Assembly (NCBI GenBank): GCA_001603005.1
Contig: LVAJ01000032.1
Span: forward strand, 1 to 64,000
DNA length: 64,000 nucleotides
Source: Clostridiales bacterium Firm_04
GTDB taxonomy: Bacteria; Bacillota; Clostridia; Oscillospirales; Ruminococcaceae
Reading direction: 5' to 3'
Part shown: positions 2,145 to 27,098 of the stretch, piece after piece
Layout of the letters: each line of letters opens with the position of its first letter
How positions within the stretch are numbered: position 1 is the first letter of the stretch
Position numbers and translations under genes: made by a program
The notes under the pieces: model-generated
Told to the model about the DNA's origin: nothing
The model's database searches: none
Seen by the model: only the letters and a program-made list of their open reading frames with translations

Positions 2145-2156
2145 AGTTGAGTCTGT

Positions 2157-2340
2157 GTGCATATTTTTATCCGGAACAGTTGCTTGATATATTCCCCGGT
2201 TTCTAAAACAGTCATATTCCTCTTTTCCCGAACATACACCTTTACGAAAACCAATTCAGAGGTGATATGTATGAAACCGGAAATCAAGTTACAAAATGTA
2301 CGCAGCGCCCCGCGGGGCGATGCTGTTTTTATCGTAGATT
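2157..2340 (+). repeat. Module boundary R0: cwlD upstream region with deleted coding part
   Basis: The roughly 110-base upstream region and first codons (MKPEI) match those of the later copies. The sequence then jumps straight to the foreign tail and hairpin. The jump coincides with the similar octamers GGAAATCA (cwlD codons 3-6) and GGGAATCA (start of the tail), so about 170 bases were probably lost by recombination between them. Confidence 0.7.
2302..2331 (+). terminator. Module-start GC hairpin, copy 0
   Basis: Hairpin core GCAGCGCCCC / GGGGCGATGC followed by TGTTTTTAT, then the shared TCGTAGATTCGTT. One of five copies, one at each boundary. Confidence 0.7.
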
Positions 2341-2417
2341 CGTTAATTTTGGCGCTATTCTTTTTGCAACGAAAATGCCGGGATTGGCTTGACAGCATAG
2401 GCTTTTCATAATAACAC

Positions 2418-2449
2418 AAAAAGGCGGTCCGGTAATGGATCGCCTTTTT
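2418..2449 (-). terminator. Terminator, likely bidirectional
   Basis: AAAAAGGCGGTCC pairs with GGATCGCCTTTTT around a short loop. It ends the minus-strand genes at 2460-3386. Confidence 0.8.
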
Positions 2450-2459
2450 CTGCATAATA

Positions 2460-2786
2460 TTAAAATCCCCCAAGCCCACGATGACCGTAGACCTTGCATC
2501 TGTTCAGCTCGCTTTCAAGCTGTCCAAGCTCCGCATCAGCCAGCGTGATCTCAGCATAATCAAGGTTTTCGATAATACGCTCCTTGTTCTTTGAGCCGGG
2601 AATCGGCACGACATTCGGGTATTTGCGGAGCATCCACGCAAGTGAGATCTGCGCAGGCGTTACATTTTTTCTGTCCGCAAACGCTCTGAGCATTTTTACA
2701 ATCGGCATATTTCCCTCGATGTTTCGCCGTGAAAGCTGCGGCACCCAATTCCGCACATCTGGTATCAGTTTTATCGGTTTCATCAT
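2460..2786 (-). pseudogene. Aldo/keto reductase, C-terminal fragment
   Basis: A 108-residue frame matching only the last third of a typical 280-330-residue aldo/keto reductase. It has the helix and cofactor-binding segment TPAQISLAWMLRK-VVPIPGSKNKERI and the C-terminal helix NLDYAEITLADAELGQLESEL. The TIM-barrel start and the catalytic Asp-Tyr-Lys-His residues are missing. It follows the NTF2-like lipoprotein gene by 6 bases and has a GGTGATATG ribosome site, so it may still be translated. Probably a deletion remnant. Confidence 0.75.
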
Positions 2787-2792
2787 ATCACC

Positions 2793-3386
2793 TTATTTCG
2801 GGGCATTGACAGCTATCCATTCTCCGTCACGCTTTTTGTAGTAATGTGTGCCTTTCATGCGGTAAGTTTCTCTGGCACCGCAGGCATTGGCATTCAGCAC
2901 CGAGGTATATGTAATACTTGCTGTATCACCGCTGACTGCAACAGTTGGGCTGTCCATACCGATCGTGAAGTACCGCAGGCTGCCGTCGGCAATGTCTGCA
3001 AAGTATTCCTCACGGGTCTGTGTCATACCGCTCATGTGGGTGTAGGTCATATCCTCGGAGACAAGCTCACGCATTGTGTCAATATCTGCATCGGTCATAG
3101 CCTGACAGTATCTTGCCTGTGCATACAGAACAGAAAGCTGTTCATCGTTCATCGAGCCGAGGTCTGCATTTATCAGCGCCACATTTGTCAGTGTAGAAAA
3201 GTCGTAATTCTTCATATCATCACCGCTTTCATTTTGGCTTGTGTCAATGATCTCAGTTATCACTTGTGATGTGACTGCTTTTGTTAGCTCAGTTTCAGCA
3301 GCAGTATTTGAAGCTGTCTGTTCGCTCTCATTTCCGCAGGAAGTCAGGCAAAGCAGCACTGCGGTCAATAGAATGATTCGTTTCAT
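2793..3386 (-). CDS. Lipoprotein with an NTF2/SnoaL-like (DUF4440-type) domain
   Basis: A 197-residue protein. A lipoprotein signal ends in LTSCG (Cys near residue 16), followed by a Ser/Thr/Glu-rich linker. An NTF2-like domain occupies about residues 90-197 and is clearly homologous to the C-terminal domain of the flavodoxin protein at 7534: both carry a TxTHMSGxTQTxEEYF/FF motif. The start after GGAGGTGATCTCA is preferred over the GTG three codons upstream. A copy of the shared operator (3461-3484) lies upstream, which places it in the same regulon. The NTF2 fold may bind a small ligand or be an enzyme; the substrate is unknown. Confidence 0.75.
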   Translation of the reverse strand: MKRIILLTAVLLCLTSCGNESEQTASNTAAETELTKAVTSQVITEIIDTSQNESGDDMKNYDFSTLTNVALINADLGSMNDEQLSVLYAQARYCQAMTDADIDTMRELVSEDMTYTHMSGMTQTREEYFADIADGSLRYFTIGMDSPTVAVSGDTASITYTSVLNANACGARETYRMKGTHYYKKRDGEWIAVNAPK

Positions 3387-3460
3387 TGAGATCACCTCCG
3401 ATCGTTTATCCTATGCATAATTATATCACATCTTCTGCGGTGTGTATAATTAAAAATCTA

Positions 3461-3484
3461 AATAACCGATAGAAATATTAAATT
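3461..3484 (-). promoter_or_regulatory. Shared operator, copy A (LysR-type candidate)
   Basis: Contains AATAACCGATAGAAATATTAA, nearly the core found at 6468-6490 and 7438-7454. It is upstream of the NTF2 lipoprotein gene, whose -10 (TATAAT on the minus strand) is near 3420. Confidence 0.6.
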
Positions 3485-3545
3485 ACAGTCTCGCTGCAAA
3501 CGATAAAACATGTCATCGGCAACTCGCAAACTGCATTTGAATAAA

Positions 3546-3584
3546 ACTGAATCCCCACACTCTTTTGCGAATGTGGGGAGTTCT
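3546..3584 (-). terminator. Terminator of the SDR/AKR operon
   Basis: CCCCACA / TGTGGGG arms, flanked by AACT / AGTT, with a T-rich tract on the minus strand. It lies just past the SDR stop. Confidence 0.75.
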
Positions 3585-3593
3585 TATTCGTAT

Positions 3594-4451
3594 TTACCTT
3601 CCTAACTGGAACTTCTTGTTTTTCAGCGCTGCTATCGTTCCGCCGTCCACAAGCAGGTCGGTGCCTGTCACATAGCTTGCAGCATCGCTTAATAGGAACG
3701 ATCCTGCCGCACCGATCTCGTCAGGCGAGCCCACGCGACGCATCGGTGTTGCGTCGATCATTCGCTGATAGCCTGCACCGTTTGCATTGAATTCGTCATA
3801 GGCAAGGGGCGTGACGATAACTCCGGGGCTTATGGTGTTGATCCTCGCACCACGCTCTCCCCATTCGTGGGCAGCGGCATACTGCACCTGCAGGTGGTTC
3901 GCCTTCTTGGAAACGATGTAAGCCGTACCGGAATTTGTGATACGCTCGAGTGACAGGCAGGGCAGGTCTTTCAGCTGATCCGCAGGAGTGGTCATGATCT
4001 GATATTCCTCCTCGGTGGAAAGCGGCGGGAACATATAGCCCGTCTGACTGGAGATCAGCAGTCCCGCACCGCCCCTTGCGATGACCTTTCCGAAAGCATC
4101 AAGTGCGTACTTCGAGCCGATGAGATCAAGGTTGATGATCTTCTCAGGGCTAGCCTGATTGGGCGAATGTCCTGCGGTGTGAATGTAGTATTTCACCTCG
4201 CCAAGCTCGGCGGCTTTTGCGGCAAATGCTTCGATGCTCTCTTTGCTGTTGGCATCGACCACCATAGTTTCCACTGCATAGCCGTAACCCTGATACTCAC
4301 GCTTTACTTCATCAAGACGCTTCTCGCTGATGTCACCGAAAAGCAGTGTCATTCCCGCACAAACACGGCGAAGGATCGCCGTTCCCATGCTGCCTGCACC
4401 AAGCAGTACAGCGACCTTTCTGTTCTCGTTTCTGTCAAATACCATAGCCAT
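3594..4451 (-). CDS. Short-chain dehydrogenase/reductase
   Basis: A 285-residue classical SDR. The nucleotide-binding glycine motif is GAGSMGTAI near residue 18. The middle has HTAGHSPN in place of NNAG, the catalytic Ser is in LISSQTG, and Tyr/Lys are in YIVSK. The C-terminal segment YVTGTDLLVDGG is typical. It is NAD(P)-dependent; the substrate cannot be read from sequence. Last gene of an operon with the two aldo/keto reductase genes (12-base gap to its neighbour); the start follows AAGGAGGTATTTTT. Confidence 0.85.
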   Translation of the reverse strand: MAMVFDRNENRKVAVLLGAGSMGTAILRRVCAGMTLLFGDISEKRLDEVKREYQGYGYAVETMVVDANSKESIEAFAAKAAELGEVKYYIHTAGHSPNQASPEKIINLDLIGSKYALDAFGKVIARGGAGLLISSQTGYMFPPLSTEEEYQIMTTPADQLKDLPCLSLERITNSGTAYIVSKKANHLQVQYAAAHEWGERGARINTISPGVIVTPLAYDEFNANGAGYQRMIDATPMRRVGSPDEIGAAGSFLLSDAASYVTGTDLLVDGGTIAALKNKKFQLGR

Positions 4452-4463
4452 AAAAATACCTCC

Positions 4464-5528
4464 TTAATAGTCCGCAAAGCGTTCGTTTTTATCAATTGCC
4501 GTGAGCTGTGCCATTTCGTCAGCACTTAGCTCAAAGTCAAATATCTCGCAGTTTTCCTGAATGTGGTCGGGGTTGCTGCTGCTGGGTATCGCAATATTCC
4601 CTGCCTGCAAATGCCACCGCAGAATGACCTGTGCAGAGGTCTTTCCGTGAGCCGCTGCGATAGAAAAAATAGTCGGATCATCAAAAAGCGTCTGCGTGTT
4701 GCCACGACCGCCCAGCGGGAACCACGATTCAAGCACTGTTCCGTACTGTGCGATATGCGACTGCATTTCCTTGCTCTGGTGGTAGGGGTGCGTTTCATTT
4801 TGCAGCAGTGCCGGCTTTATGCTTGTTGCATTTACAAGCCTGTCAAAGTCCTCCGGCTCGTAGTAATTGGAAATCCCTATTGAACGCAGCTTGCCTTCAC
4901 CGACTGCCTTTTCCATAGCCTGATAAGCCTGCACATCGTTCTCTGGCTGAGAGTGGTGAAGTATCATCAGGTCAATGTAATCAAGCCCCAGCCTGTCGAG
5001 AGAAGCCTGCACCGCAGCTTCACCGTCATCATAGTCAGACGTCCACATTTTTGTGGTAACGAAGATCTCCTCACGGGTGACGATGCCTTCGTCTATGGCT
5101 CGCTGAATACCACGTCCGACTGCCTCCTCATTGCCGTAAATTCGGGCTGTGTCGATCAGACGATAGCCGTCGGAGAGAGCCCAGTAAACAGAGTTCTCCG
5201 CCTCCTCGTCCGATAGAGAAAAGCAGCCTATACCCAGTATCGGCATTTCATAGCCGCTGTTGAGAGTGACGGTTTTCGTGTCGAAATCAAATTCGGGATA
5301 GCCTGAATTGACCGTTTCTGCCGGTAGCGTTTCCTGCTGTGATTCTGTTGCTTCGTCAGTTTCTTCTGAATTGACTTCAACCTCTGTTTTGGCTAATGTC
5401 ACAGCAGTTGAGGTTATTTCTTCTGACGTTGTATTGACAGATGTTGAAACAGAGCCGCTGTCGTTTGCACCGCAGGAAGCGAGTGCTGCACATAGCAAAA
5501 GTAGGATAACACAGTTTAATAATCTCAT
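4464..5528 (-). CDS. Aldo/keto reductase with a lipoprotein signal peptide
   Basis: A 354-residue protein. The N-terminus is a lipoprotein signal with lipobox LASCG (Cys near residue 19), then a Ser/Thr/Glu linker to about residue 70. A complete aldo/keto reductase domain follows. The catalytic tetrad is visible: Asp and Tyr in LIDTARIYGNE, Lys in TTKMW, His in LMILHHSQ. The C-terminal NADP-binding part has IAIPSSSNPDHIQENCEIF. The domain is usually cytosolic and NADPH-dependent, so export is unusual. The start MRLLNC follows AAGGAGGATGT; the longer frame from 5549 has no ribosome site. Confidence 0.8.
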   Translation of the reverse strand: MRLLNCVILLLLCAALASCGANDSGSVSTSVNTTSEEITSTAVTLAKTEVEVNSEETDEATESQQETLPAETVNSGYPEFDFDTKTVTLNSGYEMPILGIGCFSLSDEEAENSVYWALSDGYRLIDTARIYGNEEAVGRGIQRAIDEGIVTREEIFVTTKMWTSDYDDGEAAVQASLDRLGLDYIDLMILHHSQPENDVQAYQAMEKAVGEGKLRSIGISNYYEPEDFDRLVNATSIKPALLQNETHPYHQSKEMQSHIAQYGTVLESWFPLGGRGNTQTLFDDPTIFSIAAAHGKTSAQVILRWHLQAGNIAIPSSSNPDHIQENCEIFDFELSADEMAQLTAIDKNERFADY

Positions 5529-5548
5529 ACATCCTCCTTGATCTTCCA

Positions 5549-6394
5549 TCAGTGAATATGATACATTCCAAGCGTCACCGCATTTGCCATATTGTCGGGA
5601 TTGTGCGTTCCTTTGCCTTTATCGAGGGCACGGATCGCAGTCATATCATCATCTGTCAGTTCAAAATCAAAAATACTGATGTTGTCACGGATATGCTCGA
5701 TAGAAGTCGCTTTTGGAAGCGCGATGATGCCCTTCTGATAATGCCAGCGGAGAATGATCTGTGCGACTGATTTGCCGTACTTTTCGGCAAGCCTCACAAG
5801 TACCTTATCGGTCAGCAGCTTGCGATTTGCGTGACCGAGGGGATACCACGCCTCCATGCGGATATTGTATTTTGCAAGATACTCACGCAGCTCCTTCTGC
5901 TGAAAATACGGATTACACTCCATTTGGTTGACAACGGGCAGGATCTCCATGTTCGGCAGCAGCTTGTCAAGGAACTTGACTGTGTGATTGCTCACACCGA
6001 TCGACCTGATCTTCCCCGCCTTTACCGCTTCTTCAAGGGCTTTCCAAGCACCTGCGGTGTCACCGTAGGGCTGGTGGAGCAGATACAAGTCCATGTAGTC
6101 AAGTCCCAGTTTTGACAGCGAGGTGTCGATCGCCTTTTTCGCCGCTTCATAGCCGTAGTCCTGAATCCACAGCTTCGAGGTCACATAGATCTCCTCACGG
6201 GGAATGCCCGACTTCTTCACCGCCTTGCCCACATCACTCTCGTTCTGATAAGCAGCCGCCGTGTCGATCAGACGGTAGCCCTCTTTCAACGCAGTCGTGA
6301 CGGCTTCCTCTGTCGGGCCGTTGTTCGGCACCATAAATACGCCGAAGCCTGTTGCGGGAATCGTTGTGTTATCGTTCAGATTAAAATTTGTCAT
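5549..6394 (-). CDS. Aldo/keto reductase (cytosolic)
   Basis: A 281-residue single-domain aldo/keto reductase. It has the full tetrad: Asp/Tyr in LIDTAAAYQNE, Lys in TSKLW, His in LYLLHQPYG. The cofactor segment IALPKATSIEHIRDNISIF is near residue 245. It is first in the minus-strand operon AKR, AKR-lipoprotein, SDR, behind a promoter that overlaps the shared operator. The start MTNFNLN after GAGGTGATCTGC is preferred over the frame start three codons upstream. Confidence 0.88.
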   Translation of the reverse strand: MTNFNLNDNTTIPATGFGVFMVPNNGPTEEAVTTALKEGYRLIDTAAAYQNESDVGKAVKKSGIPREEIYVTSKLWIQDYGYEAAKKAIDTSLSKLGLDYMDLYLLHQPYGDTAGAWKALEEAVKAGKIRSIGVSNHTVKFLDKLLPNMEILPVVNQMECNPYFQQKELREYLAKYNIRMEAWYPLGHANRKLLTDKVLVRLAEKYGKSVAQIILRWHYQKGIIALPKATSIEHIRDNISIFDFELTDDDMTAIRALDKGKGTHNPDNMANAVTLGMYHIH

Positions 6395-6450
6395 GCAGAT
6401 CACCTCATTAAGATTTCTTTAATACCATTTTATCACACGAACAGTGATAA

Positions 6451-6490
6451 GTCTAATAGAAAACTTTAATAACCGATAGAAAAATTAAAT
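6451..6490. promoter_or_regulatory. Shared operator, copy B, between divergent AKR operon and LysR gene
   Basis: A 40-base AT-rich element ending in CGATAGAAAAATTAAAT. It matches copy C (7438-7477, opposite strand) over its full length with few changes. Its GTCTAAT end, read on the minus strand as ATTAGAC, sits where the -35 of the AKR operon would be, about 18 bases from TAAAAT. That placement suits a LysR-type activator. Confidence 0.7.
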
Positions 6491-6503
6491 CATTCAGAAT
6501 GTC

Positions 6504-6532
6504 TTTACAAAACAGAATGGCTATGCTATAAT
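6504..6532 (+). promoter_or_regulatory. Promoter of the LysR gene
   Basis: TTTACA, 17-base spacer, TATAAT, just downstream of operator copy B. Confidence 0.8.
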
Positions 6533-6549
6533 AAATCCGAGGTGATACC

Positions 6550-7408
6550 ATGACCACAAAGCAGCTTACCTATGCCGCCGAGCTTGCAAGAACGCAGAAT
6601 TTCAACCGAGCAGCCGAAAACCTCTTTATCTCCCAGCCAACTCTGACCTATCAGATCAAGCTGTTGGAGGACGAGATCGGCTTTGAGATATTTGCACGTT
6701 CGGGCAAGGGCGCAGCGCTCACGCCCGCAGGTGAGCAGTTCATCGTGACGATCAGAAGTGTGCTGACAGAGCTGAACAAGGCGATAGAAAACGGGCAGAA
6801 TTTCAGCTCAAAGTACAAGGGCAACATCAATATCTGTATGCCCGTGCGGTCTGCACTTTATTATCTGCCGCAGATCATCATGGAGTTTGCAAAGGTCTAT
6901 CCCGATATTTCAGTGACACCGTACTTTATTTATTCGGGCTACTTAGAGCGCTTTTTTGCAGGCGAAATGGACGTGACTTTCTCCCTCGAACATCAGATGA
7001 AGCGTATCCATGACGTGAAAAAGCATCACCTTTTTGACAGCGGCATCTATCTGATCTGCAAGAAAAACGATATGCTCTCCCGCAAGCGGCTGATCCGTGA
7101 AAGCGACCTCTCGGGACGGACACTTATGGTGGGCAATACCTCACCGCCCGAGCTGAAAGCTGTGCAGCAGCGGCTCATCGCAGGGGGGCAATATCAGCTA
7201 TTTCAACAGCCCCGATCACAATACCACGCTGACAAATGTGGCGTCCGAGCGTGGCATCTGTCTGTCACCGGGTTTCCTCAATGACCACACCGGCGAATTT
7301 GTTTGGATCCCCTTTGACTGTCAGGAGAAAATGCCCTGCGCCCTCTATACCCACAAGTCAGAGAGCCGAAAGTTCGTGCTGGATTTCGTGAAAATGGTTC
7401 AGGATTAA
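6550..7408 (+). pseudogene. LysR-family regulator, interrupted by a frameshift
   Basis: The first 213 codons encode an HTH_1 domain (LTYAAELARTQNFNRAAENL, then LFISQPTLTYQIKLLEDE) and most of the effector domain. The frame then ends early at 7284. Sequence from about 7190 continues the same protein in the next frame (NISYFNSPDHNTTLTNVASE through VLDFVKMVQD) to a stop at 7408. The shift falls at a run of six G (7183-7188); removing one G gives a normal protein of about 285 residues. It could be a real mutation, a switchable tract, or a sequencing error. It is divergent from the AKR operon it probably regulates. Confidence 0.8.
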
Positions 7409-7437
7409 TACAAAGACGATCCGCTTGCTGTGTGACG

Positions 7438-7477
7438 ATTTAATTTTTCTATCAGCAATTTAATATTTCAATTAGAC
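7438..7477 (-). promoter_or_regulatory. Shared operator, copy C
   Basis: Read on the minus strand it matches copy B across 40 bases, including the core CTGATAGAAAAATTAAAT. Its TTAGAC end on the plus strand lies 19 bases before TACAAT (7497-7502), at the -35 position of the flavodoxin gene. Confidence 0.7.
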
Positions 7478-7478
7478 T

Positions 7479-7528
7479 TACCTCCGTTCTGTATGCTACA
7501 ATAGAAGCAGCAAATCAGAACGGAGGTA
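7479..7528. repeat. 13-base perfect inverted repeat around the flavodoxin promoter
   Basis: TACCTCCGTTCTG (7479-7491) and CAGAACGGAGGTA (7516-7528) are exact reverse complements, 24 bases apart. The right arm contains the ribosome site; the left arm lies upstream of the -10. Confidence 0.8.
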
Positions 7529-7533
7529 TTTTT

Positions 7534-8706
7534 ATGAAACACTTTATTTCTTTGGTGCTTGCAGGTGTGATGACCGCTGTTTCCGTCACATTCAGCAGTC
7601 CCGCAGCCACGGCTGAGACAGAACATCATGACAACGTGCTGATCACATACTTTTCAAGAGCAGGAGAAAACTACAACGTGGGCGTTGTGGAGCGAGGAAA
7701 CACCGACCTCCTTGCCGGGATCGTCGCTGAGGAGACCGGCGGCGAGCTGTTCCGCATCGAGACTGTTAAGGAATATCCGTCCGCATACGATGAAATGCTC
7801 ACCGTTGCGACAGAGGAGCGCACCAACAAGGAGCGTCCCGAACTGAAAACATCTATCGAAAACTTCGATACATATGATGTGATCTTCGTGGGCTATCCGA
7901 TCTGGTGGGGCGATATGCCTATGGCGATGTATACCTTCCTCGAAAGCTATGACTGGAACGGCAAGACTGTGATCCCATTCAACACCCATGAGGGCAGCGG
8001 TCAGGCAAGTACCGTCACAACGATCAAGGGCATCTGCGGGGGCGCAGATGTGATGAGCGGCTTTTCCGTTCGTGGTTCTGTCGCACAGAATGACGGCGAA
8101 AGTGCAAGGACGATCGTGCAGAACTGGCTGGATTCCAACAATTTCGCTGCGATTGCAGCAAAGAAAACGGTTAGTTATACAGCACAGGATGTACGCAATT
8201 TGCAGCAGTTTCTGCTGACAAAATCGACCGGCGAAGACCTCAGCGACAAGTCCTGTGACCTGAACAATGACGGCAAATGGAACGCCGCTGATCTGACATT
8301 GATGAAACGGCAGATTCTGCAATCGCAGGAGGTGGATGCTGTGAGTTCAGCAACGATCACAGCGGATGAACGCGCAATTCTTGAAACGTATGAGAAATTC
8401 GAGCAGGCAATGATCGACAAGGATATGGATACGCTGAATGCACTTGTTACTGAGGATAAGACCTTTACGCATATGTCCGGCAAAACGCAGACCAAAGAGG
8501 AATTTTTCGGAGAGATCGCTGACGGTACACTGAATTATTACGCCTACAAGCTGAATGATCCGGTCGTTACCGTGGACGGCGACACTGCCGCTCTGACAGG
8601 CAGTACAACACTGGAAGCGAAGGTCTACGGTTCATCCGGAACATGGACACTGACAACAAATCAGAAGTTCGTGAAGCTGGACGGAGCGTGGAAGCTGTGC
8701 AATTAA
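7534..8706 (+). CDS. Secreted flavodoxin-dockerin-NTF2 fusion protein
   Basis: A 390-residue protein. A signal peptide (about 1-27, ending near SPAATAE) leads into a flavodoxin of the Flavodoxin_4 type (about 35-200) with FMN phosphate loop ITYFSRAGEN and GYPIWWGDMP. A dockerin-like segment follows at about 213-262, with one clear calcium loop (DLNNDGKWNAADLTLMKRQI) and a weaker first repeat. An NTF2-like domain (about 274-390) is homologous to the lipoprotein at 2793. Export of a flavodoxin and its linkage to a dockerin are unusual. The start follows CGGAGGTATTTTT. It is preceded by shared operator C and so is grouped with the AKR operon. Confidence 0.82.
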   Translation: MKHFISLVLAGVMTAVSVTFSSPAATAETEHHDNVLITYFSRAGENYNVGVVERGNTDLLAGIVAEETGGELFRIETVKEYPSAYDEMLTVATEERTNKERPELKTSIENFDTYDVIFVGYPIWWGDMPMAMYTFLESYDWNGKTVIPFNTHEGSGQASTVTTIKGICGGADVMSGFSVRGSVAQNDGESARTIVQNWLDSNNFAAIAAKKTVSYTAQDVRNLQQFLLTKSTGEDLSDKSCDLNNDGKWNAADLTLMKRQILQSQEVDAVSSATITADERAILETYEKFEQAMIDKDMDTLNALVTEDKTFTHMSGKTQTKEEFFGEIADGTLNYYAYKLNDPVVTVDGDTAALTGSTTLEAKVYGSSGTWTLTTNQKFVKLDGAWKLCN

Positions 8707-8710
8707 CAAG

Positions 8711-9202
8711 GTGATCGTCATGACAGATGCAAAAGAAAACATGATGGGAACGCTGCTGATCCTGAAAACGATCCGCATCTGCCTGATCGCAACGGTAGCG
8801 ATCACCCTCTGCGGACTACTGATCTTCCAGCTTATCCCTGATACACTGCTTGCACTGTTCAATGCGCAGGGCGAGGTACTTGAAATCGGCAGAGTTGCTC
8901 TGCGTATCGTCAGCTTTGTGTTCCCGTTTTCGGGGCTGACGCTGATACTCGGTGCTTTCTTTCAGGCACTCGGCAACAGCAGAAAAACACTCCTGACCTC
9001 AGTTGTACAGCTCGTTATCATGCTGACCTCTGCTATGATTCTGTCAAAGATCGGTACGGTCAATACAGTATGGTTTGCATTTGTTATCACCGAAGTGTTA
9101 GTGACATTGCTTGCAGTTTTGTTGATGAAAGAAGTGAACAGCAAGACAATTACCCGTATACCGTCAAATATTGTAAAAACAGATCTGGCGGCAGAGATGT
9201 AA
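8711..9202 (+). pseudogene. MATE-family efflux protein, C-terminal fragment
   Basis: A 163-residue frame with four hydrophobic helices that matches the last third of a MATE transporter (usually about 450 residues). It has TIRICLIATVAITLCGLLIF, the GAFFQALGNSRKTLL loop and a C-terminal helix. The first eight or so helices are missing, so transport is unlikely. Start is uncertain (GTG at 8711 or ATG at 8720). The last 50 bases of this gene and the sequence after it recur at 21700, in another module. Confidence 0.75.
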
Positions 9203-9360: not shown

Positions 9361-9546
9361 ATGAAACCGGAAATCAGAAAGATTGTGACAAAAAGTGCGT
9401 TGTTCTTCGGGATCCTCGCCGTCAGCGCGGCAGGGATGCAGCTCACAGCATTGCGCAATGCGCAGAATGCACCGGATGCCGTGACTGCATCTGCCGCGCA
9501 ATCTCCTGTCATCGTCCTCGATGCCGGACACGGGGAATCAACTTAA
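9361..9546 (+). pseudogene. cwlD 5' remnant R1 (61 codons)
   Basis: Matches the first 58 codons of the complete cwlD at 26352: an N-terminal membrane anchor and the strand VIVLDAGHG. It then ends with EST and a stop supplied by foreign sequence. The signal-anchor and linker part (AAGMQLTALRNAQNAPDAV) differs from the other long copies. It has an intact ribosome site, so a 61-residue membrane peptide could be made; amidase activity is impossible. Confidence 0.8.
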
Positions 9547-9565
9547 ACTAAGTCGCTAAATGCAC

Positions 9566-9594
9566 GAATCGCCCCGCGGGGCGATTCTGTTTTT
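9566..9594 (+). terminator. Module-start GC hairpin, copy 1, with covarying stem
   Basis: GAATCGCCCC pairs with GGGGCGATTC, then TGTTTTTAT. Other copies have GCAGCGCCCC / GGGGCGCTGC. Both arms changed together, so pairing is kept. Confidence 0.8.
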
Positions 9595-18156: not shown

Positions 18157-18164
18157 TGATTATG

Positions 18165-18278: not shown

Positions 18279-18339
18279 ATGGTAGATTCGTTTGTTTTAA
18301 TATCGTGTTTCTACAAACAGCAAATGATAGTCTAATCTA

Positions 18340-19539: not shown

Positions 19540-19548
19540 TCTCCTTTT

Positions 19549-20115: not shown

Positions 20116-20659
20116 CGCTCTGCTCCTTTCTGAATATCAGCGACCATATAAGTCCGAATATCGCACAGCCGATGATCACGAACACTGTATCTATTTTCAG
20201 GAAAGCTGTCAGCACCAATGCCGCTGCCATGATAACATAGGAAACAGCGTGTTTTTTCGTCGCCATGAACATGGTATATACCGCTTTGAGTATCAGGGCA
20301 AGAACACCTGCACGAATCCCCATAAAGGCGTACTGCACAGCTTTTGACTCCTGAAATGCTTTCAGAACAAAAGAGATCACGGATATTATCAGAAACGACG
20401 GCAGGACAACGCCGAGCGTTGCACAGACAGCACCGAGTGTCCCGGCGGTACGGCTGCCGACAAAGGTAGCAGCATTGATCGCAACCGGACCCGGTGTTGA
20501 TTCTGCTATCGCAACAACTTCAAGTATATCATCCTCATTCAGCCAATGCTTATTATCACAGACCTCGCGCTGTATGAGCGGTATCATCGCATAACCGCCG
20601 CCGAAGGTAAAAGCTCCGATCTTCATGAAGGTCAGGAACAATTCAAGATTCTTATTCAC
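20102..20659 (-). CDS. Chromate transporter half (CHR family)
   Basis: A 185-residue half-size CHR protein with GAFTFGGGYAMIPLIQREV and ESTPGPVAINAATFVG. It is first of the operon CHR, CHR, GNAT-DUF4298 and divergent from the DUF134-NifX gene. The region between them holds the repeated GACATAAGTC sites, which may control both directions. Confidence 0.88.
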   Translation of the reverse strand: MNKNLELFLTFMKIGAFTFGGGYAMIPLIQREVCDNKHWLNEDDILEVVAIAESTPGPVAINAATFVGSRTAGTLGAVCATLGVVLPSFLIISVISFVLKAFQESKAVQYAFMGIRAGVLALILKAVYTMFMATKKHAVSYVIMAAALVLTAFLKIDTVFVIIGCAIFGLIWSLIFRKEQSDDMD

Positions 20660-20732
20660 AATATCACTCCCACAGAAAAATTATACCAAATGAAGCAATA
20701 TTCGTCAATATCTGAATATGCCAAGAATATAC

Positions 20733-20772
20733 TTGACATAAGTCGAGAAATATGTTATAATCGACATAAGTC
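20733..20772 (+). promoter_or_regulatory. Promoter and repeated operator of the DUF134-NifX gene
   Basis: TTGACA (20733), 17-base spacer, TATAAT (20756). The decamer GACATAAGTC occurs at 20735-20744, overlapping the -35, and again at 20763-20772, near the transcription start. This is the classic placement for a repressor. Confidence 0.75.
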
Positions 20773-20789
20773 AGAAAGGAGATGCTATT

Positions 20790-21503
20790 ATGCCAAGACC
20801 ACAAAAATCACGCCGTATCTGTTGTTACCCCGATTACTGGAGCTTTGCGCCCGATCAGGATACAGCAAACGATACGGTCGTTATGTCGCTTGACGAGTTT
20901 GAAACGATACGTCTGATAGATTATCAGTCAAAGACACAGGAACAATGTGCTCAGGAGATGAACGTGGCAAGAACGACCATCACGGCGATCTATGACACGG
21001 CAAGAAAAAAGCTTGCACAGGCTCTGGTCGAAGGCAGACGCATCGTCATTTCAGGCGGAAATTATACTCTTGATAACACGATCTCGGAGGAGATCGCACG
21101 GAAAGGAAGCAGTATTATGAGAATCGCAGTAACCTATGAAAACGGTCAGATCTTTCAGCATTTCGGCAGAACAGAGCAGTTCAAGCTCTATGACGTTGCT
21201 GACGGCAAGATCATCAACGAGCAGGTAGTTGGAACAATGGGCGCAGGACATGGTGCGCTTGCGGGATTCCTGAAAAATGCTCAGGCTGACGTTCTGATCT
21301 GCGGAGGTATCGGCGGAGGAGCACAGATGGCTATGCAGGAGGCAGGCATCACACTCTACGGTGGAAATACGGGCAGCGCTGATGAAGCTGTAAAGGCTTT
21401 CCTTGCACAGACACTTGTTCAGAATGAGAATCCGACTTGCGATCATCACCATGAACATGGCGAAGGTCATTCTTGCGGAGATCACGGCTGCGGTAAACAC
21501 TGA
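20790..21503 (+). CDS. DUF134 HTH protein fused to a NifX/NifB-type cofactor domain
   Basis: A 237-residue protein. The N-terminal DUF134 domain (about 1-100) begins MPRPQKSRRICCYPDYWSF and contains a sigma-like HTH (TQEQCAQEMNVARTTITAIY). A dinitrogenase iron-molybdenum cofactor domain (about 108-215) has MRIAVTYENGQIFQHFGRTEQF and the glycine-rich ICGGIGGGAQMAM. The tail is rich in His and Cys (DHHHEHGEGHSCGDHGCGKH) and probably binds metal. It may sense metal or Fe-S state and act on the repeated operator. DUF134-NifX fusions are known in Firmicutes. Confidence 0.85.
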   Translation: MPRPQKSRRICCYPDYWSFAPDQDTANDTVVMSLDEFETIRLIDYQSKTQEQCAQEMNVARTTITAIYDTARKKLAQALVEGRRIVISGGNYTLDNTISEEIARKGSSIMRIAVTYENGQIFQHFGRTEQFKLYDVADGKIINEQVVGTMGAGHGALAGFLKNAQADVLICGGIGGGAQMAMQEAGITLYGGNTGSADEAVKAFLAQTLVQNENPTCDHHHEHGEGHSCGDHGCGKH

Positions 21504-21699
21504 TGAAGATCATAACATTAGTTGAGAACACCGTAGAAAACGAGAAATGCATTGCGGAGCACGGCTTTTCAATCTATATTGAGACTGAAAAGCATTAACT
21601 CCTGCTCGACACGGGGCAGACGGATGCAGTTGTAAAGAATGCGGAAGTGCTGAACATTGACCTGTCTGCTGTTGACACAGTTATCCTAAGTCACGGTCA
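21503..21699 (+). pseudogene. Metallo-beta-lactamase-fold protein, stop-interrupted and truncated
   Basis: Overlaps the previous stop (TGATG). It reads MKIITLVENTVENEKCIAEH, then an in-frame TAA where a lysine codon would be expected, then LLLDTGQTDAVVKNAEVLNI and DTVILSHGHS. It ends at the start of the HxHxDH metal motif, where the sequence switches to a copy of the MATE gene tail. Both a nonsense change and a module junction inactivate it. Confidence 0.75.
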
Positions 21700-21897
21700 T
21701 TCCGTATACCGTCCAATATCGTAAAAACTGATCTGGCGGCAGAGATGTAGTTGAACATTGGCAATGCAGCGCATAATTCACCGCCTTTGCATTTATTATC
21801 CGGAACAGTTGCTTGATATTCCCCGGTTTCTAAAACAGTCATATTTCTCTTTTCCCGAACATACACCTTTACTAAAACCACTTCAGAGGTGATATAT
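21700..21897 (+). repeat. Module boundary R4: MATE gene tail plus cwlD upstream region
   Basis: Repeats 9154-9360 nearly base for base: the last 16 MATE codons and stop, then the shared upstream region and cwlD ribosome site. The join to the previous gene is within CCGTATACCGT. Confidence 0.8.
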
Positions 21898-22083
21898 ATG
21901 AAACCGGAAATCAGAAAGATTGTGACGCGCAGCGCATTATTTTTCGGGATTCTTGCGGTCAGTGTCTGCGGGATGCAGCTCGCGGTGATCAGGAGCGGAC
22001 GGAAGCTGCCGGAAGCGGTTTCCGTATCCGCAAACCGGACGCCGGTCATTGTACTGGATGCGGGACACGGGGAATCAACTTAA
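21898..22083 (+). pseudogene. cwlD 5' remnant R4 (61 codons)
   Basis: The same 61-residue frame ending GHGEST, with the linker type of the complete gene (VIRSGRKLPEAVSV). Its upstream region is of the R1 kind, so it is a hybrid of the two forms. Confidence 0.82.
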
Positions 22084-22102
22084 ACATAGTTGTAAAACAA
22101 AC

Positions 22103-22131
22103 GCAGCGCCCCGCGGGGCGCTGCTGTTTTT
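22103..22131 (+). terminator. Module-start GC hairpin, copy 4
   Basis: A perfect 22-base palindrome with arms GCAGCGCCCCG and CGGGGCGCTGC, followed by TGTTTTTATCG. Confidence 0.85.
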
Positions 22132-22506
22132 ATCGTAGATTCGTTTGTTTTAATATCATCCTTCTTCTCAAAAAAATGATAGTCATATATATCAATCTGC
22201 AAAGGCACCAGATATATACTCATTTTCGGGTGGTTCGTACAGCCAACTTCATAGCATTCAACGAAAGTTTTGAAAAGGATTGTTATTCTGTTCATAGGTC
22301 GATGCTATAACGGATGATTACTTTGCAATATTGGACAAGGTCTCGCAACCGTGCTATAATGAATACAGCCAGGCAGCTTTGAAAATGAGCATTGGGAAAG
22401 AAGGGATTTTTGATGAGAACAGGCACCTTTCAAAAGAACTGGCGATGTATCAGGCAGCCAGGAAACCGCTTCTGAAACAACGAACTGCTCTGGAGGGATC
22501 AATACG
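22132..22506. other. Leader region of the GNAT gene
   Basis: Holds the shared post-hairpin sequence, a trace of the minus-strand tail (22185-22230), a promoter TGGACA-17-TATAAT (22332-22360) and a 20-codon open frame starting at 22413 after GAAGGG (MRTGTFQKNW...). The latter ends at 22475, before the GNAT coding region, and might be a leader peptide or chance. Confidence 0.45.
22332..22360 (+). promoter_or_regulatory. Promoter of the GNAT/NMT1-like operon
   Basis: TGGACA, 17-base spacer, TATAAT. Confidence 0.65.
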
Positions 22507-23064
22507 ATTACAATCAGAAACGCAGAAATTGCGGATGCCGCACGTATTCTTGAAATTTATGCATATTATGTAGAGAATACGGCAATCACATTTGAATATG
22601 AGGTTCCGACACTTGCGGAATTTCAGGATCGAATGTGCAGCACAATGCAGAAATATCCGTACATCGTCATCGAAAAGGATGGCGTGATCGCAGGGTATGC
22701 ATATGCGGGCGCATTAAAGAACCGGGCAGCATATAACTGGTCATGTGAAATGACAGTATATCTGGATCACAATGTTCAGAAATGCGGGCTTGGACGAATG
22801 ATATATGAGGAAATGGAAAGGCGGCTTGGCAGAATGGGAATCCTGAATCTCTATGCGTGCATCGGATATCCCGAAACAGAGGATGAATACCTAACCAACA
22901 ACAGTACGGAATTTCATGCGCATCTCGGTTATAAACGAGTCGGCGAATTCCGGAACAGCGGTTACAAATTCGGACGCTGGTATCACATGGTATGGATGGA
23001 AAAAATCATCGGTGCGCACAGGGAAAATCAGCCGGATGTAATATTTGCCGGCAACAATATCTGA
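22507..23064 (+). CDS. GNAT acetyltransferase without a standard start codon
   Basis: From 22507 the frame reads ITIRNAEIADAARILEIY, the usual start of a phosphinothricin/PAT-type GNAT. It continues to QKCGLGRMIYEEMERR (acetyl-CoA site) and NNSTEFHAHLGYKRVGEF. No ATG, GTG or TTG is in frame before residue ~43. A GGAGGG ribosome site lies nine bases before an ATT at 22507. The sequence CAATACG could be CAATGACG with one G lost. So either ATT is used or the start is broken. Substrate unknown. Confidence 0.7.
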   Translation: MTIRNAEIADAARILEIYAYYVENTAITFEYEVPTLAEFQDRMCSTMQKYPYIVIEKDGVIAGYAYAGALKNRAAYNWSCEMTVYLDHNVQKCGLGRMIYEEMERRLGRMGILNLYACIGYPETEDEYLTNNSTEFHAHLGYKRVGEFRNSGYKFGRWYHMVWMEKIIGAHRENQPDVIFAGNNI

Positions 23065-23096
23065 GTTATATTTGCAAAACAAGGAGAGATGTATTT

Positions 23097-24032
23097 ATGA
23101 GATACAAGTTTACTTCAGTCATCATTGCACAGGAGGAAGGCTTCTATCAGGAAGAGGGGCTGGACGTCACGCTGACACAGTTTGACAATAATCCCGCCGA
23201 GTTGGCTGCGCTGGAATCGGGCAAAATTGATGTTGCGCCAATCAATGCAACAAATCTGATCTCGTTCCTTGGAAGCGGACATCAGATCACATCCATCGGC
23301 GGTGTCATGAGTGACGGGCACGCACTGGTTGTGGCACCGGAAGTAGTAGAGGGCGTTGATCCGGAGGATTATAGTCTGGAACTGCTGAAAGGAAAAACGA
23401 TCATTTTGCAGGCGGGCAGTACCTATGATATCGAGTTCCGCAAGGCGCTCACAGATGCGGGATTTGATCTGGAAAAGGACATCACGATCCTGAGCGCAGA
23501 CAGCGGAACGAGTGCTTATAACTCACTGAAAAACAAGGAGATTGACGGTGCAGCAGTCTATGCACCGTTCCGTCAGAAAGCCATTGATGAAGGTTTTGTT
23601 CCGCTGCTCTACTGCGATGAAATCGAGTATTTTGACCATCCGATCTGCTGCCGGGATGTGGGACTTACGGAGAACATCGAGCAGAATCCAGAAAAGTTCA
23701 AGGCATTTACAAAAGCCATGATCAGAGCCGGTGAATTTCTGGAAAATAACCATGCAGGTGCCGTAAAGGATGCCAAGAAGTATCTGGATATGGACGAAGA
23801 ACTCCTTGAAGGCGAGATCTACAACCATTCCGTAAACAATCCCGATCCGGACAGAAAGAAAACGGAAACATTCTACCACGCAATGGACGAGCTTGGATAT
23901 ATAACCAATCCGGTCAATATCACAGATTACATCAACAGCACGATCTACGAAGAAGCATTGCAGGAGCTGCTTGATGAATCACCGGACAATGCGTATTATC
24001 AATATCTCAAAACTTATCATGAAAATGCCTGA
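23097..24032 (+). CDS. NMT1/SsuA-like substrate-binding fold protein without signal peptide
   Basis: A 311-residue protein of the NMT1/SsuA-type binding fold: IIAQEEGFYQEEGLDVTL at the very start, then AALESGKIDVAPINATN and GKTIILQAGSTYDIEF. It has no signal peptide or lipobox, and the first strand is short, so it is cytosolic as read. NMT1 relatives include the eukaryotic pyrimidine synthase THI5/NMT1, which is also cytosolic. A Cys pair in HPICCRDVG is noted, but the THI5 active-site pattern is not established. The start follows AAGGAGAGATGTATTT. Confidence 0.7.
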   Translation: MRYKFTSVIIAQEEGFYQEEGLDVTLTQFDNNPAELAALESGKIDVAPINATNLISFLGSGHQITSIGGVMSDGHALVVAPEVVEGVDPEDYSLELLKGKTIILQAGSTYDIEFRKALTDAGFDLEKDITILSADSGTSAYNSLKNKEIDGAAVYAPFRQKAIDEGFVPLLYCDEIEYFDHPICCRDVGLTENIEQNPEKFKAFTKAMIRAGEFLENNHAGAVKDAKKYLDMDEELLEGEIYNHSVNNPDPDRKKTETFYHAMDELGYITNPVNITDYINSTIYEEALQELLDESPDNAYYQYLKTYHENA

Positions 24033-24052
24033 TCGGACGCGGAGAATGTGAA

Positions 24053-24961
24053 ATGGATGCACTAGAAAGATCCGCTTTCAAGCAAAGGATCAAGCGTGAA
24101 GCGAAAAAGCTCGGTATCAATCTGATCGGCTTTGCAAATGCAGAGCGCTGGGAGGAATTTGCCGAGATCAGCAGTGACTATTATCCGCAGACGATCTGGC
24201 CGTGGTGCAAAACTGTGATCGTACTTGCGGTACAGATTTTCCCCTCCATGATCGAGACAACGCCGTCTGTGGTATATTCAGAGCTGTATAATACCACAAA
24301 TCGTATGCTGGATGAATCGGCAACCGTCTTGCAAATTTCATGTACCGGAACGGGTACAGGGCGCATTTCTTTCCGCGTGACTGCTATGGAGATATTTCTG
24401 TTCTTGTTCACAAACCGGAAGCAGCGTTTTCCCATGTGATTGCAGGAAAATACGCAGGTTTGGGAACGATTGGCCTGAATCATACGCTGATCACCAAGGA
24501 ATACGGTCCCAGAATCCGGCTTGTTTCTGTGATTACGGATGCGGAGATCGTACCTGATCCGTTACCGAAAAAGGAATACTGTATCAAATGCGGACTTTGC
24601 ATGAAAAAGTGCCCGATGCAGGCATTCAGCCCGAATGAGGGCGGTGCAGTCGCATGCATGGACAAACATAAATGTGCGTTGTATCATCAGAAACTGAAAA
24701 ATGAATTCCGCTATCCCTGCGGTGTCTGCACGGCGGTCTGTCCGGTCGGTGAGGACAAGAAGATCTACGGAAAATCCTCGGTTTCAGAAGATGGCATTGC
24801 ACATTGTCAGGCTTTTGGTTCTAAAAATGCAGTCAGTAATATGGTTTGAACCTCGGCATACTGCGCAGTATGATACACGATATATAGGCTTGGATCGCAA
24901 TAAACGGGCTCTGATCGTGAGGAGATTGCAGGAGATCACGGAGCGTGAAGTACAGGAATGA
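24053..24961 (+). pseudogene. 4Fe-4S protein of the epoxyqueuosine-reductase type, frameshifted
   Basis: Three consecutive frames make one protein. Frame 1 (24053 to about 24330) gives LGINLIGFANAERWEEF and LDESATVL. Frame 2 (from about 24331) gives ANFMYRNGYRAHFFPRDCYG, KYAGLGTIGLNHTLI, and two Fe-S clusters: CIKCGLCMKKCP and PCGVCTAVCP. A possible third frame runs from about 24840 to the stop at 24961, which overlaps the next start (ATGA). One missing G at 24330 explains the first shift. The gene is either decaying or affected by sequencing errors. This family includes QueG relatives and uncharacterised reductases. Confidence 0.7.
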
Positions 24962-26004
24962 ATGATGCAACAGAAATATCACTCGACGAATTTTTGAAAC
25001 TCCCCAAGGGAAGCTATTTGCTGATTGACACACGAAACGAAGTCTCCTATCAGCTCGGTCATATTGAGGGTGCTGTCCTCCCCCATGAAAATATCAGATC
25101 AGCAGACAATCGCAAGCTGATATTTTACTGTCAGTATGGCGTGCAGAGTGTTGAAACAGCAGAGCAGTTCAGAAAACGCGGCTTTCAGGCTTACAGTCTG
25201 AAGGGCGGGTATGCGGCGTGGCTGAAAAAACAGTTTCACGCTCTGGACACAGACGAATGGGAACGCTACGACAGGCAGATAACACTGTCGCAGATCGGTG
25301 TTACTGGTCAGCTCAGGCTGAAAAATACGGCAGTGCTTATCATAGGTGCAGGGGGTCTTGGCTGTCCCTGCGGAATGTACCTCGCCGCCGCAGGGGTGGG
25401 CAGGATCGGCATTATCGACCATGACGAGGTAAGTCTTTCCAACATGAACAGGCAGGTCGCTCATCGTGAAACAGGCTTGAATAAGGCGGTCTCGCTGAAA
25501 AATACGCTCGAAGGTATCAATGACAAGATACAAGTGACGGCGTACCCTGAGCGTTTCGGTACAGATAATGCCGCCGAACTGCTTGACGGGTATGATTTTG
25601 TGATAGACTGCACGGATACTGCCGAAACAAAATTTATGGTGAATGACCTGTGCGTGCGATATGATAAGCCCTACTGCTACGGTGGTGTGATCGGCTTTGA
25701 AGGACAGGTGATGACAGTCATTCCTCACAAAACAGCTTGCCTGAGATGTATTTTTGAAGAACCGCCCACAGGCTGTGAGACCTGTGAGAGCCACGGCATC
25801 ATCGGTGCAGCGGCAGGCATGATAGGCTGTATCCAGGCACTTGAAGCGATCAAATATATCACTTCTCCGGACAGGCTCCTGACGAATCAGATATTTATCT
25901 TCAATATGCTTACCATGAAAACAAGAACTGTTGGATTTGGCGGTATCAGTTCAAAGTGCAGTATATGTGATCGTCGATTATCTCAGAGAACAGTTCATCA
26001 TTGA
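24958..26004 (+). CDS. Rhodanese-MoeB/ThiF fusion, C-terminus altered at a module junction
   Basis: A 348-residue protein. The N-terminal rhodanese domain (about 1-95) has its active-site cysteine in FYCQYGVQS. An E1-like MoeB/ThiF domain (about 100-338) has ATP motif IIGAGGLGCPCGMYL, SNMNRQ, and zinc cysteines CLRC and CSIC. It probably adenylates a sulfur-carrier protein and hands it sulfur. Rhodanese first is the reverse of eukaryotic MOCS3. The last ~10 residues (after CSICD) are read from the shifted tail of a copied ATPase gene, so the original end is lost. No partner ThiS/MoaD gene is seen. Confidence 0.8.
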   Translation: MNDATEISLDEFLKLPKGSYLLIDTRNEVSYQLGHIEGAVLPHENIRSADNRKLIFYCQYGVQSVETAEQFRKRGFQAYSLKGGYAAWLKKQFHALDTDEWERYDRQITLSQIGVTGQLRLKNTAVLIIGAGGLGCPCGMYLAAAGVGRIGIIDHDEVSLSNMNRQVAHRETGLNKAVSLKNTLEGINDKIQVTAYPERFGTDNAAELLDGYDFVIDCTDTAETKFMVNDLCVRYDKPYCYGGVIGFEGQVMTVIPHKTACLRCIFEEPPTGCETCESHGIIGAAAGMIGCIQALEAIKYITSPDRLLTNQIFIFNMLTMKTRTVGFGGISSKCSICDRRLSQRTVHH

Positions 26005-26185
26005 GCTGAAGATCTGGAACGGTTCTGCCTATAATGAAAAAGGCGAACAGCAGCTTTGTGAGTATCTGGAAAGCTTCGGTCTGAAAACCTGCTACATGCT
26101 GACGTTCAATTTCAACAAAGAAAAAGAGCAAGGCATCAAAGATGTGAAAATCGGAGATATGACCATACACGAAGCGACACTATAA
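25965..26185 (+). pseudogene. 3' end of the AAA-ATPase/nuclease gene (copy of 11250-11467)
   Basis: A 73-codon tail (FIIELKIWNGSAYNEKGEQQ onward) nearly identical to the end of the protein at 9878, with the same stop and the same downstream stem-loop. It has no start. It is fused in a different frame to the rhodanese-ThiF gene. Confidence 0.85.
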
Positions 26186-26198
26186 ACTGAAAAATGCA

Positions 26199-26250
26199 CT
26201 TCGCCCGCTGAGCAGATTCCGGTCTCATCCGGTTCCTGCACGGCGGGCGG
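26199..26250 (+). repeat. Stem-loop after the ATPase tail, second copy
   Basis: CGCCCGC...GGCGGGCG arms with an inner CCGG-TCTCAT-CCGG hairpin. It matches the element at about 11483-11530 and may be a terminator. Confidence 0.55.
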
Positions 26251-26294
26251 TTTCGGTCTATAATCATGCGCTTGTGATTCAAGCTGTTGAAAAT

Positions 26295-26351
26295 CATATT
26301 CCGCTGCGCTTCCGCATACACCTTTACTAAAACACTTCAGAGGTGATATGT
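26295..26351 (+). repeat. Module boundary R5: upstream region of the complete cwlD
   Basis: Contains GCATACACCTTTACTAAAAC and the ribosome site AGAGGTGATATGT common to all copies. The sequence before 26310 is not shared with R0, R1 and R4, so the join again lies close to the gene. Confidence 0.65.
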
Positions 26352-27098
26352 ATGAAACCGGAAATCAGAAAGATTGTTACAAGAAGCGCGTTGTTCTTCG
26401 GGATCCTCGCGGTCAGCGTTTGCGGGATGCAGCTTGCGGTGATCAGGAGCGGACGGAAACTGCCGGATGCGGTTTCCGTATCCGCAAACCGGACGCCGGT
26501 CATTGTGCTGGATGCGGGGCACGGCGGCATTGACGGCGGATGCTCCACAGCGGAAGGCGTGCCGGAAAAGGGGATCAATCTTGCGATCATGCTGGATCTG
26601 CGGGATCTGCTGGAAATGTCCGGCTTTGAGGTGCATGTCACGCGGGACAGCGACCGTTCGATCCATGACAAAGGCATCGAGGGCATTGCAAATCAGAAAA
26701 GCTCCGACATGGACAATCGCCTTGCGATCCTCAATGCGCCGGAGCATGCGGTCTGCCTTTCGATTCACCAGAATCAGTTCACCGATCCGAAGTACAGCGG
26801 TGCGCAGATGTTTTATTCCGATACCAATGACCGCAGCGAAAGTCTCGCAGAATCGCTGCAAACGGCTTTTCGGGAGCAGCTTCAGCCGGAGAACAGCCGC
26901 GAGATCAAGCGCTGCGGCAAGGAACTGTTTCTCTGCTGTTTCTGCAAGCATCCGATGGTCATGGCGGAGTGCGGCTTTCTCTCCAATCCGGACGAGGCGA
27001 AACGGCTGACCGATCCGGACTACCAGAAGCAGACTGCCTTTACGCTCTATGCCGGACTGACGCGCTGGCTTGCGGAGCAGGAACGCGCATTTACATGA
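26352..27098 (+). CDS. cwlD: N-acetylmuramoyl-L-alanine amidase, CwlD-like (complete)
   Basis: A 248-residue protein. A signal anchor lies at about residues 12-30 and an Amidase_3 domain at about 50-240. The zinc and catalytic residues are visible: His in LDAGHGG, Glu in PEKGINLAI, His in LSIHQNQF and Glu in MAECGFLSN. CwlD of spore formers removes peptides from muramic acid to allow cortex muramic lactam. Size, anchor and single domain fit CwlD. The first ~55 codons recur in the truncated copies upstream, so this 5' part was probably delivered by the latest module. Confidence 0.85.
   Translation: MKPEIRKIVTRSALFFGILAVSVCGMQLAVIRSGRKLPDAVSVSANRTPVIVLDAGHGGIDGGCSTAEGVPEKGINLAIMLDLRDLLEMSGFEVHVTRDSDRSIHDKGIEGIANQKSSDMDNRLAILNAPEHAVCLSIHQNQFTDPKYSGAQMFYSDTNDRSESLAESLQTAFREQLQPENSREIKRCGKELFLCCFCKHPMVMAECGFLSNPDEAKRLTDPDYQKQTAFTLYAGLTRWLAEQERAFT

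Follow-up and report, generated by a model that had tools for sequence, protein, structure and literature searches.

The first 64 kb of contig C27 (LVAJ01000032.1) in the draft genome of Clostridiales bacterium Firm_04, a stretch of 64,000 nucleotides that we call the window, carry a ladder of truncated copies of the front end of a cwlD-like cell-wall amidase gene ahead of a single complete copy of that gene. We consider it probable, at about three chances in four, that elements driven by a large serine recombinase (LSR) insert in cwlD and that the ladder is a partly decayed cargo island without a recombinase of its own, similar in kind to the staphylococcal cassette chromosome (SCC). The cassettes carrying methicillin resistance in Staphylococcus are the kind of island to which this cwlD island compares. 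An earlier note on this DNA, drawn from its letters alone, had read the ladder as repeated site-specific entry into cwlD, and this reading gained support from the one core sequence, and from an LSR and four attachment (att) junctions found in relatives. The source genome amounts to 3.54 Mb in 53 contigs and is 88.6% complete.

A repeat search and an alignment agree with the note that the start of cwlD is present in five partial copies (C1 to C5) ahead of one complete gene on the plus strand, the strand of all parts of the array given below except the cargo of modules 1 and 4, to which none is assigned. In the following, B and B' denote the front end and the body of cwlD, and P and P' the foreign sequences joined to the body and to the front, respectively. 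Copies C2, C3 and C5 share the same terminal base at the core CACGG, which corresponds to codon 61 of a GTG-initiated open reading frame, and continue past it as GGAATCAACTTAAAC, that is, DAGHG-E-S-T-stop (junction VIVLDAGHG|EST-stop); the note had correctly seen that three copies end at the same codon and enter the same foreign tail. Homology among the tails starts at base 1 beyond the core and is 156–213 nt long. Copies C1 and C4 have the same tail and have lost part of their front end. The upstream region and 61-codon front of C2 (9154–9533) have an intact B half of foreign type and are followed by the P' arm (GGAATCAACTTAAACTAAGTC) and a tail with a terminator-like hairpin (9534–9746). C3 is a 61-codon front of the own type (13381–13611; P' arm and tail, 13612–13823), and C5 comprises an upstream region resembling that of C2 and a 61-codon front like that of the complete gene (C6) (21702–22070; P' arm and tail, 22071–22240). 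Of the truncated copies, C1 retains the upstream region and the first codons (2164–2286) and then passes through an internal deletion into its tail (2287–2377), where the P' side with its hairpin is present and the P' arm itself is deleted; C4 is a remnant of the last ~16 codons (18170–18217) in front of a degenerate P' arm and tail (18218–18430). The complete gene lies at 26343–27098, its repeat unit starting at 26294, and is composed of the B half (26294–26524) and the Amidase_3 body, the B' half (26525–27098).

The fronts fall into two types, C2 being 74% identical to the complete gene of its own genome, C3 93% and C5 91%, while the C2 front is 82–91% identical to fronts in five related genomes (G001, G002, G008, G012, G020). 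Since C2 is closer to these fronts than to its own gene, the fronts evidently travel with the modules, as judged from these identities. (Row G008_a was left out of the tree of front ends.) Two more stumps, both imperfect, are found in the same genome on contigs C33 and C11, and truncation affects not only C1 and C4 but also the C33 stump and those of G010 and of G008 contig C186. Within 120 nt past the core, on the P' side, a terminator-like hairpin occurs at 26 of 35 chosen sites (interrelated ones, C1 being excluded) against 20 of 700 shuffles, and these hairpins differ between species. A decayed stump in G021 (L200 454–711) lies 11.8 kb ahead of an intact cwlD, and the gene next to this stump shares 73% identity with the neighbour of the C11 stump (L057).

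Comparison of the locus among related genomes, which the note had proposed as a check, revealed a constant junction together with intact and split states of cwlD. With the stump-tail of the window as query, 17 of 100 genomes gave a match: 16 in the genus, its own genome included, and one weak match outside; G020 was hit only via its complete gene. Of the 30 same-genus genomes, its own among them, 15 show the B-P' junction when read base by base, a count taken from stretches fetched by similarity that implies no absence from the other 15, which were not read whole. The same junction occurs in the isolates Ruminococcus flavefaciens MA2007 and YL228. A DNA-pattern scan of genome_contigs (84,980 species) returned 37 stretches, 27 of them with a cwlD frame ahead of the junction; these include stretches of MA2007 and YL228 and are titled Ruminococcus or Oscillospiraceae, save three from isolate pig4.7 (Clostridia bacterium). 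Three of the remaining stretches are decayed or diverged (L091, L108, L118), and seven, in unrelated taxa, were set aside as chance. The front ends diverge strongly from species to species, and the junction stays constant. Because it was read in half of the same-genus genomes and in two isolates, the ladder is neither a chance pattern nor an assembly artefact. A phage or plasmid origin was rejected, the stump-tail being without match in 50,697 phage and 72,556 plasmid records; two pattern matches in viral_contigs had no cwlD frame and were likewise set aside as chance. Four matched genes give G014 and G011 a common downstream flank; on the left, where a conserved flank of the chromosome was also sought, no common sequence was found upstream of the leftmost stump.

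No recombinase is visible near the ladder, and the note had placed the machinery outside. This was borne out: contig C27 has no match to the Phage_integrase, Recombinase or Resolvase models, and an LSR was found at the same point in the elements of relatives. It was spotted in G102 by reading the open frames between stump (L147 6002) and cwlD body (17892), an element of 11.9 kb in which a 526-aa protein has the Resolvase, Recombinase and Zn ribbon domains of the LSR family as well as a DUF4368 domain; in G019, LSR, stump and P-B' body lie on one contig. The G102 body is preceded by foreign sequence (GACTTAGTTTTAGTTGATTCGCCGCACGG|CGGCATAGACGG, reading ...VDSPHGGIDGG). Four types of site with one common core can thus be laid out: attB, the intact cwlD (B-B'); attL, the stumps (B-P'); attR, the front-less cwlD (P-B'); and attP (P-P'). 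This is the set of sites expected for an LSR, for which recombination activity is predicted. The attP arms are near inverted repeats (GACTyrGTTTwAGTTGATTC and GAATCAACTTAAACTrAGTC), a relation that also holds for the inner attB bases (GATGCCG...CGGCATC), and this symmetry makes CA the likely crossover dinucleotide, at 26520–26521 within the predicted attB of the window (26505–26545, spanning DAGHG|GIDGG). P-P' was read in YL228 and in G106, in the latter by eye, its diverged P' having failed the scripted read; in MA2007 it was read once the model had been set down and lies 183 nt behind the LSR. The distance past the LSR is ~180 nt in MA2007 and YL228 alike, both of which have an intact cwlD. 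Behind the P-P' site of MA2007 (L215 17656–18039) stands a DUF134-type gene whose first residues are, by eye, nearly those encoded at 20790–21503 of the window.

The nearest NCBIfam models of the LSR, both under their cut-offs, are XisF (128.8 bits; cut-off 375) and CcrB (127.9 bits; cut-off 900); CcrC gave 104.2 bits (cut-off 900) and CcrA 74.4 bits (cut-off 700). Among proteins of solved structure, the one closest to it in sequence is the SP-beta recombinase YokA (E 1.1e-18). Promoter-like boxes (TTGACA-N16-18-TATAAT, one mismatch per box allowed, no shuffle control) precede 13 of 19 P sites, which suggests that P sites face outward, towards any sequence that is joined to them. In G110, a relaxase (PF03432; NikA-like, below cut-off) and a coupling-type ATPase adjoin the LSR. 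Other genes were noticed beside it: between LSR and P, L157 (7154–8051) encodes a DUF3990 protein and a partner, a candidate PADLOC defence pair (PDC-M10A/B); L158 (5266–6160) has a pair resembling it, judged by reading alone; and L147 has a weakly HipA-like protein (PDC-M03A). A protein of the AAA-ATPase/PD-(D/E)XK type adjoins the LSR in G110 (L155) and, by DNA similarity, in G023 (L166).

The state of cwlD is associated with the presence of the LSR. Twenty-four cwlD bodies were found in 23 of the 30 same-genus genomes, 13 genomes being B-B' and 10 P-B'; none was found in the other seven. For the second body of G026 the script gave only '?', and inspection by eye led us to call it P-like; each of the two bodies of this genome (L191, L199) is joined to P-like sequence. 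LSR orthologs (at least 64% identity) are present in 12 of the 29 other same-genus genomes, those of G007 and G026 being partial, and they occur in 10 of 10 P-B' genomes vs. 1 of 13 B-B' genomes (G023), and in G007, where no body was found (Fisher p 9.6e-6, uncorrected for kinship). Eleven genomes were reached via named records, two of which (G109 and G110) carry the same contigs as G013 and G011. Five others (G102, G104, G105, G106, G108) are P-B'; four of these have an LSR, the exception being G108, whose contig ends 308 bp from the junction. In MA2007 and YL228 an LSR and P-P' accompany a B-B' gene, and no body was found in G103 and G107. Among the 23 same-genus genomes with a body, 10 thus have the host reading frame split, and an in-frame stop codon right before the core is common at P-B' junctions. 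All 24 bodies are open for 184–190 codons beyond the core, and median pairwise omega is 0.129 for B-B' (66 of 78 pairs usable) and 0.153 for P-B' (44 of 55 pairs usable); therefore, either the split is recent or can be reversed, or the body still functions without its front. These states divide the claim that every arriving module restores the gene: modules do end in a cwlD 5' part, but the LSR-bearing element leaves cwlD front-less, and the front-carrying modules are a second kind.

Domain scans of the module proteins agree with the view that the cargo between the copies is mutually unrelated. Module 1 (2400–9150) encodes a DUF4440/SnoaL lipoprotein, an SDR, two aldo/keto reductases, a LysR protein, a flavodoxin-dockerin-DUF4440 protein and a MATE fragment; module 2 (9845–13338) an AAA-ATPase with a PD-(D/E)XK domain and a SWIM zinc-finger protein; module 3 (13995–18096) a TetR regulator and an ABC transporter pair; module 4 (18781–21503) a GNAT protein, two chromate transporters and a DUF134/NifX-like protein; and module 5 (22633–26241) a GNAT protein, an NMT1-like binding protein, a 4Fe-4S protein, a ThiF/rhodanese protein and a 3' fragment of an AAA-ATPase. 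The AAA-ATPase/PD-(D/E)XK gene has its 3' end (11247–11523) repeated at 25965–26241, right ahead of the complete cwlD. At 880–2041 the window holds two small tandem units with a common promoter-like start (D11) and terminator-like end (D13).

The array modules are units of the form [P'...cargo...B] with both ends at the core. A 4.4-kb unit in MA2007 (B|P'...B|B') and a 4.2-kb unit in YL228 (P|P'...B|P') each hold one large gene of secreted type, that of YL228 with LRR and dockerin domains. Identity between the two units is 87% over 277 nt at the left end, from 4–5 nt before the core end, and 92% over 808 nt at the right end, up to 2 nt past the core; the same left end is joined at the core to B in MA2007 and to P in YL228. 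By these comparisons we regard the two as related units with the same ends. That they are one identical module was rejected, the ends being common and the middle of the gene not. The duplicated front measures mostly 210–475 nt; it is 51 nt between two stumps of G004, one of them truncated. The smallest module (1.2 kb; G010, L075 7729–8961) has a front 100% identical over the aligned 103 + 51 nt; the module looks recent, and its stump front looks to have been lost by deletion between two 9-bp repeats. G008 carries modules 3 and 4 in the same order (14136–18304 at 98%, 19274–21913 at 95.5%, with ~1 kb between them missing), compared with 85–88% identity in the aconitase and PNPase regions of the core, and positions 1388–2094 of the window are 97% identical in G002 (L089) vs. 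89–90% for the core. These identities show that modules have spread between species.

We propose that the LSR encoded on integrative elements would recombine their own attP (P-P') with attB in cwlD (DAGHG|GIDGG). Insertion would split cwlD, leaving promoter and 61 codons as the stump at attL (B-P') and the front-less body behind an element-borne promoter at attR (P-B'). A circular [P'-cargo-B] unit, closed by a B-P' junction, could then be taken up at P-B' to give P-P', cargo and B-B', by which cwlD would be restored. Later loss of the LSR part, for instance between repeated P' tails, together with homologous recombination between fronts would yield stable arrays. By what route LSR-less modules enter is the conjectural part of this scheme. 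A bolder version holds that the system is a serine-recombinase counterpart of the integron, in which a platform of LSR, outward promoter and P site holds cwlD split and any captured [P'-cargo-B] circle supplies promoter and front; we put this forward tentatively and think it rather doubtful.

Several points weigh against LSR-driven insertion as the source of the ladder. Neither a circular form nor movement has been observed. An LSR ortholog is absent from the genome of the window (best match 32%), where Phage_integrase (PF00589; 8 at E<=1e-5), Recombinase (11) and Resolvase (11, both at E<=0.01) matches all lie on other contigs; one of these 11 other Recombinase-family members could act in trans. 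Three or four serine recombinase genes are clustered on its contig C3 at about 60.4–68.8 kb. G023 has an LSR and an intact cwlD, and a search for P in three scanned stretches (C68:1–36000, C100:1–10000) returned as the only arm the P' of its stump. Its LSR and AAA gene (L166 1154–4505) stand beside the P' side in inverted order, with the intact cwlD on another contig, and it is possible that the element is inverted. Between the genes of the two isolates' units (MA2007 and YL228), identity is just 28% across the first ~1,000 residues; it is 63% across 369 aligned residues, and the last ~160 are near-identical. The MA2007 right end also matches that of a second YL228 unit at 85%, running on into cwlD. 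On contig C13 of YL228 two stumps face the same direction 188 kb apart (L149 1267, L150 12193); they may have rearranged the chromosome or may bound a very large island. The complete gene is named CwlD-like because it scores below the cut-off (221.55) of the CwlD equivalog TIGR02883, its best NCBIfam family all the same, with 189.6 bits in the window and 201.8 in MA2007. The contig begins at base 1 of the window, so the left boundary of the array lies outside the view. Stump decay follows no clear gradient from old to new. Nor is a strict serial order, with the newest module next to the gene, supported, since C5 combines two front types in a mosaic.

Entry of a B-P' unit into B-B' would be a non-canonical LSR reaction, and homologous recombination over the duplicated front would give the same product. 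CcrAB is reported to join canonical and non-canonical att pairs without a recombination directionality factor (PMC5595907, as far as the available part of this source goes), and a relaxed LSR is possible by analogy with this behaviour. The alternative is that the LSR made only the first split, after which RecA-type homologous recombination between repeated cwlD fronts and tails, by Campbell insertion of circles or by unequal exchange, built up the ladder. Homologous recombination between repeats has also acted, as the C5 mosaic attests, and duplicated fronts of the length found here, a C1-type truncated stump that adjoins different modules in G000 and G008, and the lack of an LSR ortholog in the window's genome all suit such growth. 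It does not readily explain how the left end common to the MA2007 and YL228 units comes to be joined at the core to B in one and to P, which has no homology to the front, in the other, and we hold it possible, if on balance unlikely, as the main source of the ladder.

That the stumps are functional short genes kept for themselves, either as 64-aa secreted peptides or as promoter-terminator insulators, would fit the common ending of the open frames across many species and the frequent terminator-like hairpins, bearing in mind that the hairpin sites are not independent; since the end of the stump coincides exactly with the attL half-site and C1, C4 and the stumps of G010, contig C33 and G008 contig C186 are truncated, we find this explanation very improbable. 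An artefact of assembling a repeat-rich metagenome-assembled genome deserves next to no credence: the genome is a draft and several relatives' contigs end in or near stumps, but the same junctions were read in 15 of the 30 same-genus genomes and in the two isolates. LSR-driven insertion in cwlD, followed by partial decay of the island, accordingly remains the reading we prefer.

Large serine recombinases that pile islands at one gene are already known. The note knew of no described element that uses cwlD, and for cwlD this holds in the literature searched, where nothing combines an LSR with the gene; as described in the available parts of the sources, SCC, the Enterococcus cassette chromosome (ECC) and the ssrA islands of Dehalococcoides are all LSR islands stacked at a single gene. 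The latter (DsiB, a CcrB homolog) lie in tandem, are bounded by gene-end repeats, lack an integration module in 15 of 31 cases and are discussed as integrative and mobilizable elements (PMC3146451). They resemble the cwlD ladder in being LSR islands bounded by pieces of the target gene, many without integration module. They differ in that their repeat is 20 bp from the 3' end of an RNA gene, with no break of ssrA described in the part of that paper available, whereas here promoter and 61 codons from the 5' end of a protein gene are duplicated and the gene occurs both broken and whole. A tRNA or tmRNA target was rejected for the window, which contains neither; the site is in cwlD. SCC and ECC (CcrAB) are likewise cargo islands driven by LSRs, with composites that have several att sites, but in the accessible text they use the 3' end of rlmH and a CcrA/CcrB pair (PMC6222049, PMC5595907), while the site here is the 5' part of cwlD and the LSR scores far below the CcrB cut-off. 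Among elements that split genes, gin in gerE, SP-beta in spsM and skin in sigK share with the present system a serine recombinase element whose excision can restore the gene; according to the excerpts at hand, developmental excision is theirs, and arrays of front-carrying cargo units are found only here (PMC5595907, PMC4191935, PMC5025042).

Integrons consist of a tyrosine recombinase, a neighbouring promoter and site, and an array of unrelated cargo. By analogy, the cwlD system may be likened to them in its recombinase gene, adjoining promoter and site, and array of unrelated cargo; unlike them, it has a serine recombinase, and its units end in part of a host gene. None of the eight PF00589 matches of the source genome (E<=1e-5) lies on contig C27, so an IntI-type recombinase is not seen there. 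What is new is the cwlD target, the long front-end duplication and the broken and whole gene states with front-carrying units.

For the Ruminococcus of rumen and gut, the finding describes an LSR island system with its recombinase and all four att sites, possibly usable as an LSR-att set, and it explains why 10 of the 23 same-genus genomes that have a body carry a split cwlD. If front-carrying units are captured as we infer, cargo uptake would be tied to repair of a host gene, which is not described for SCC, ECC or the ssrA islands in the portions of the sources consulted. If the integron-like version were true, cargo uptake and repair of the amidase gene would be one reversible reaction, and cells that capture a cassette would regain cwlD. 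The island offers a route for the interspecies movement of genes for stress response, transport and detoxification.

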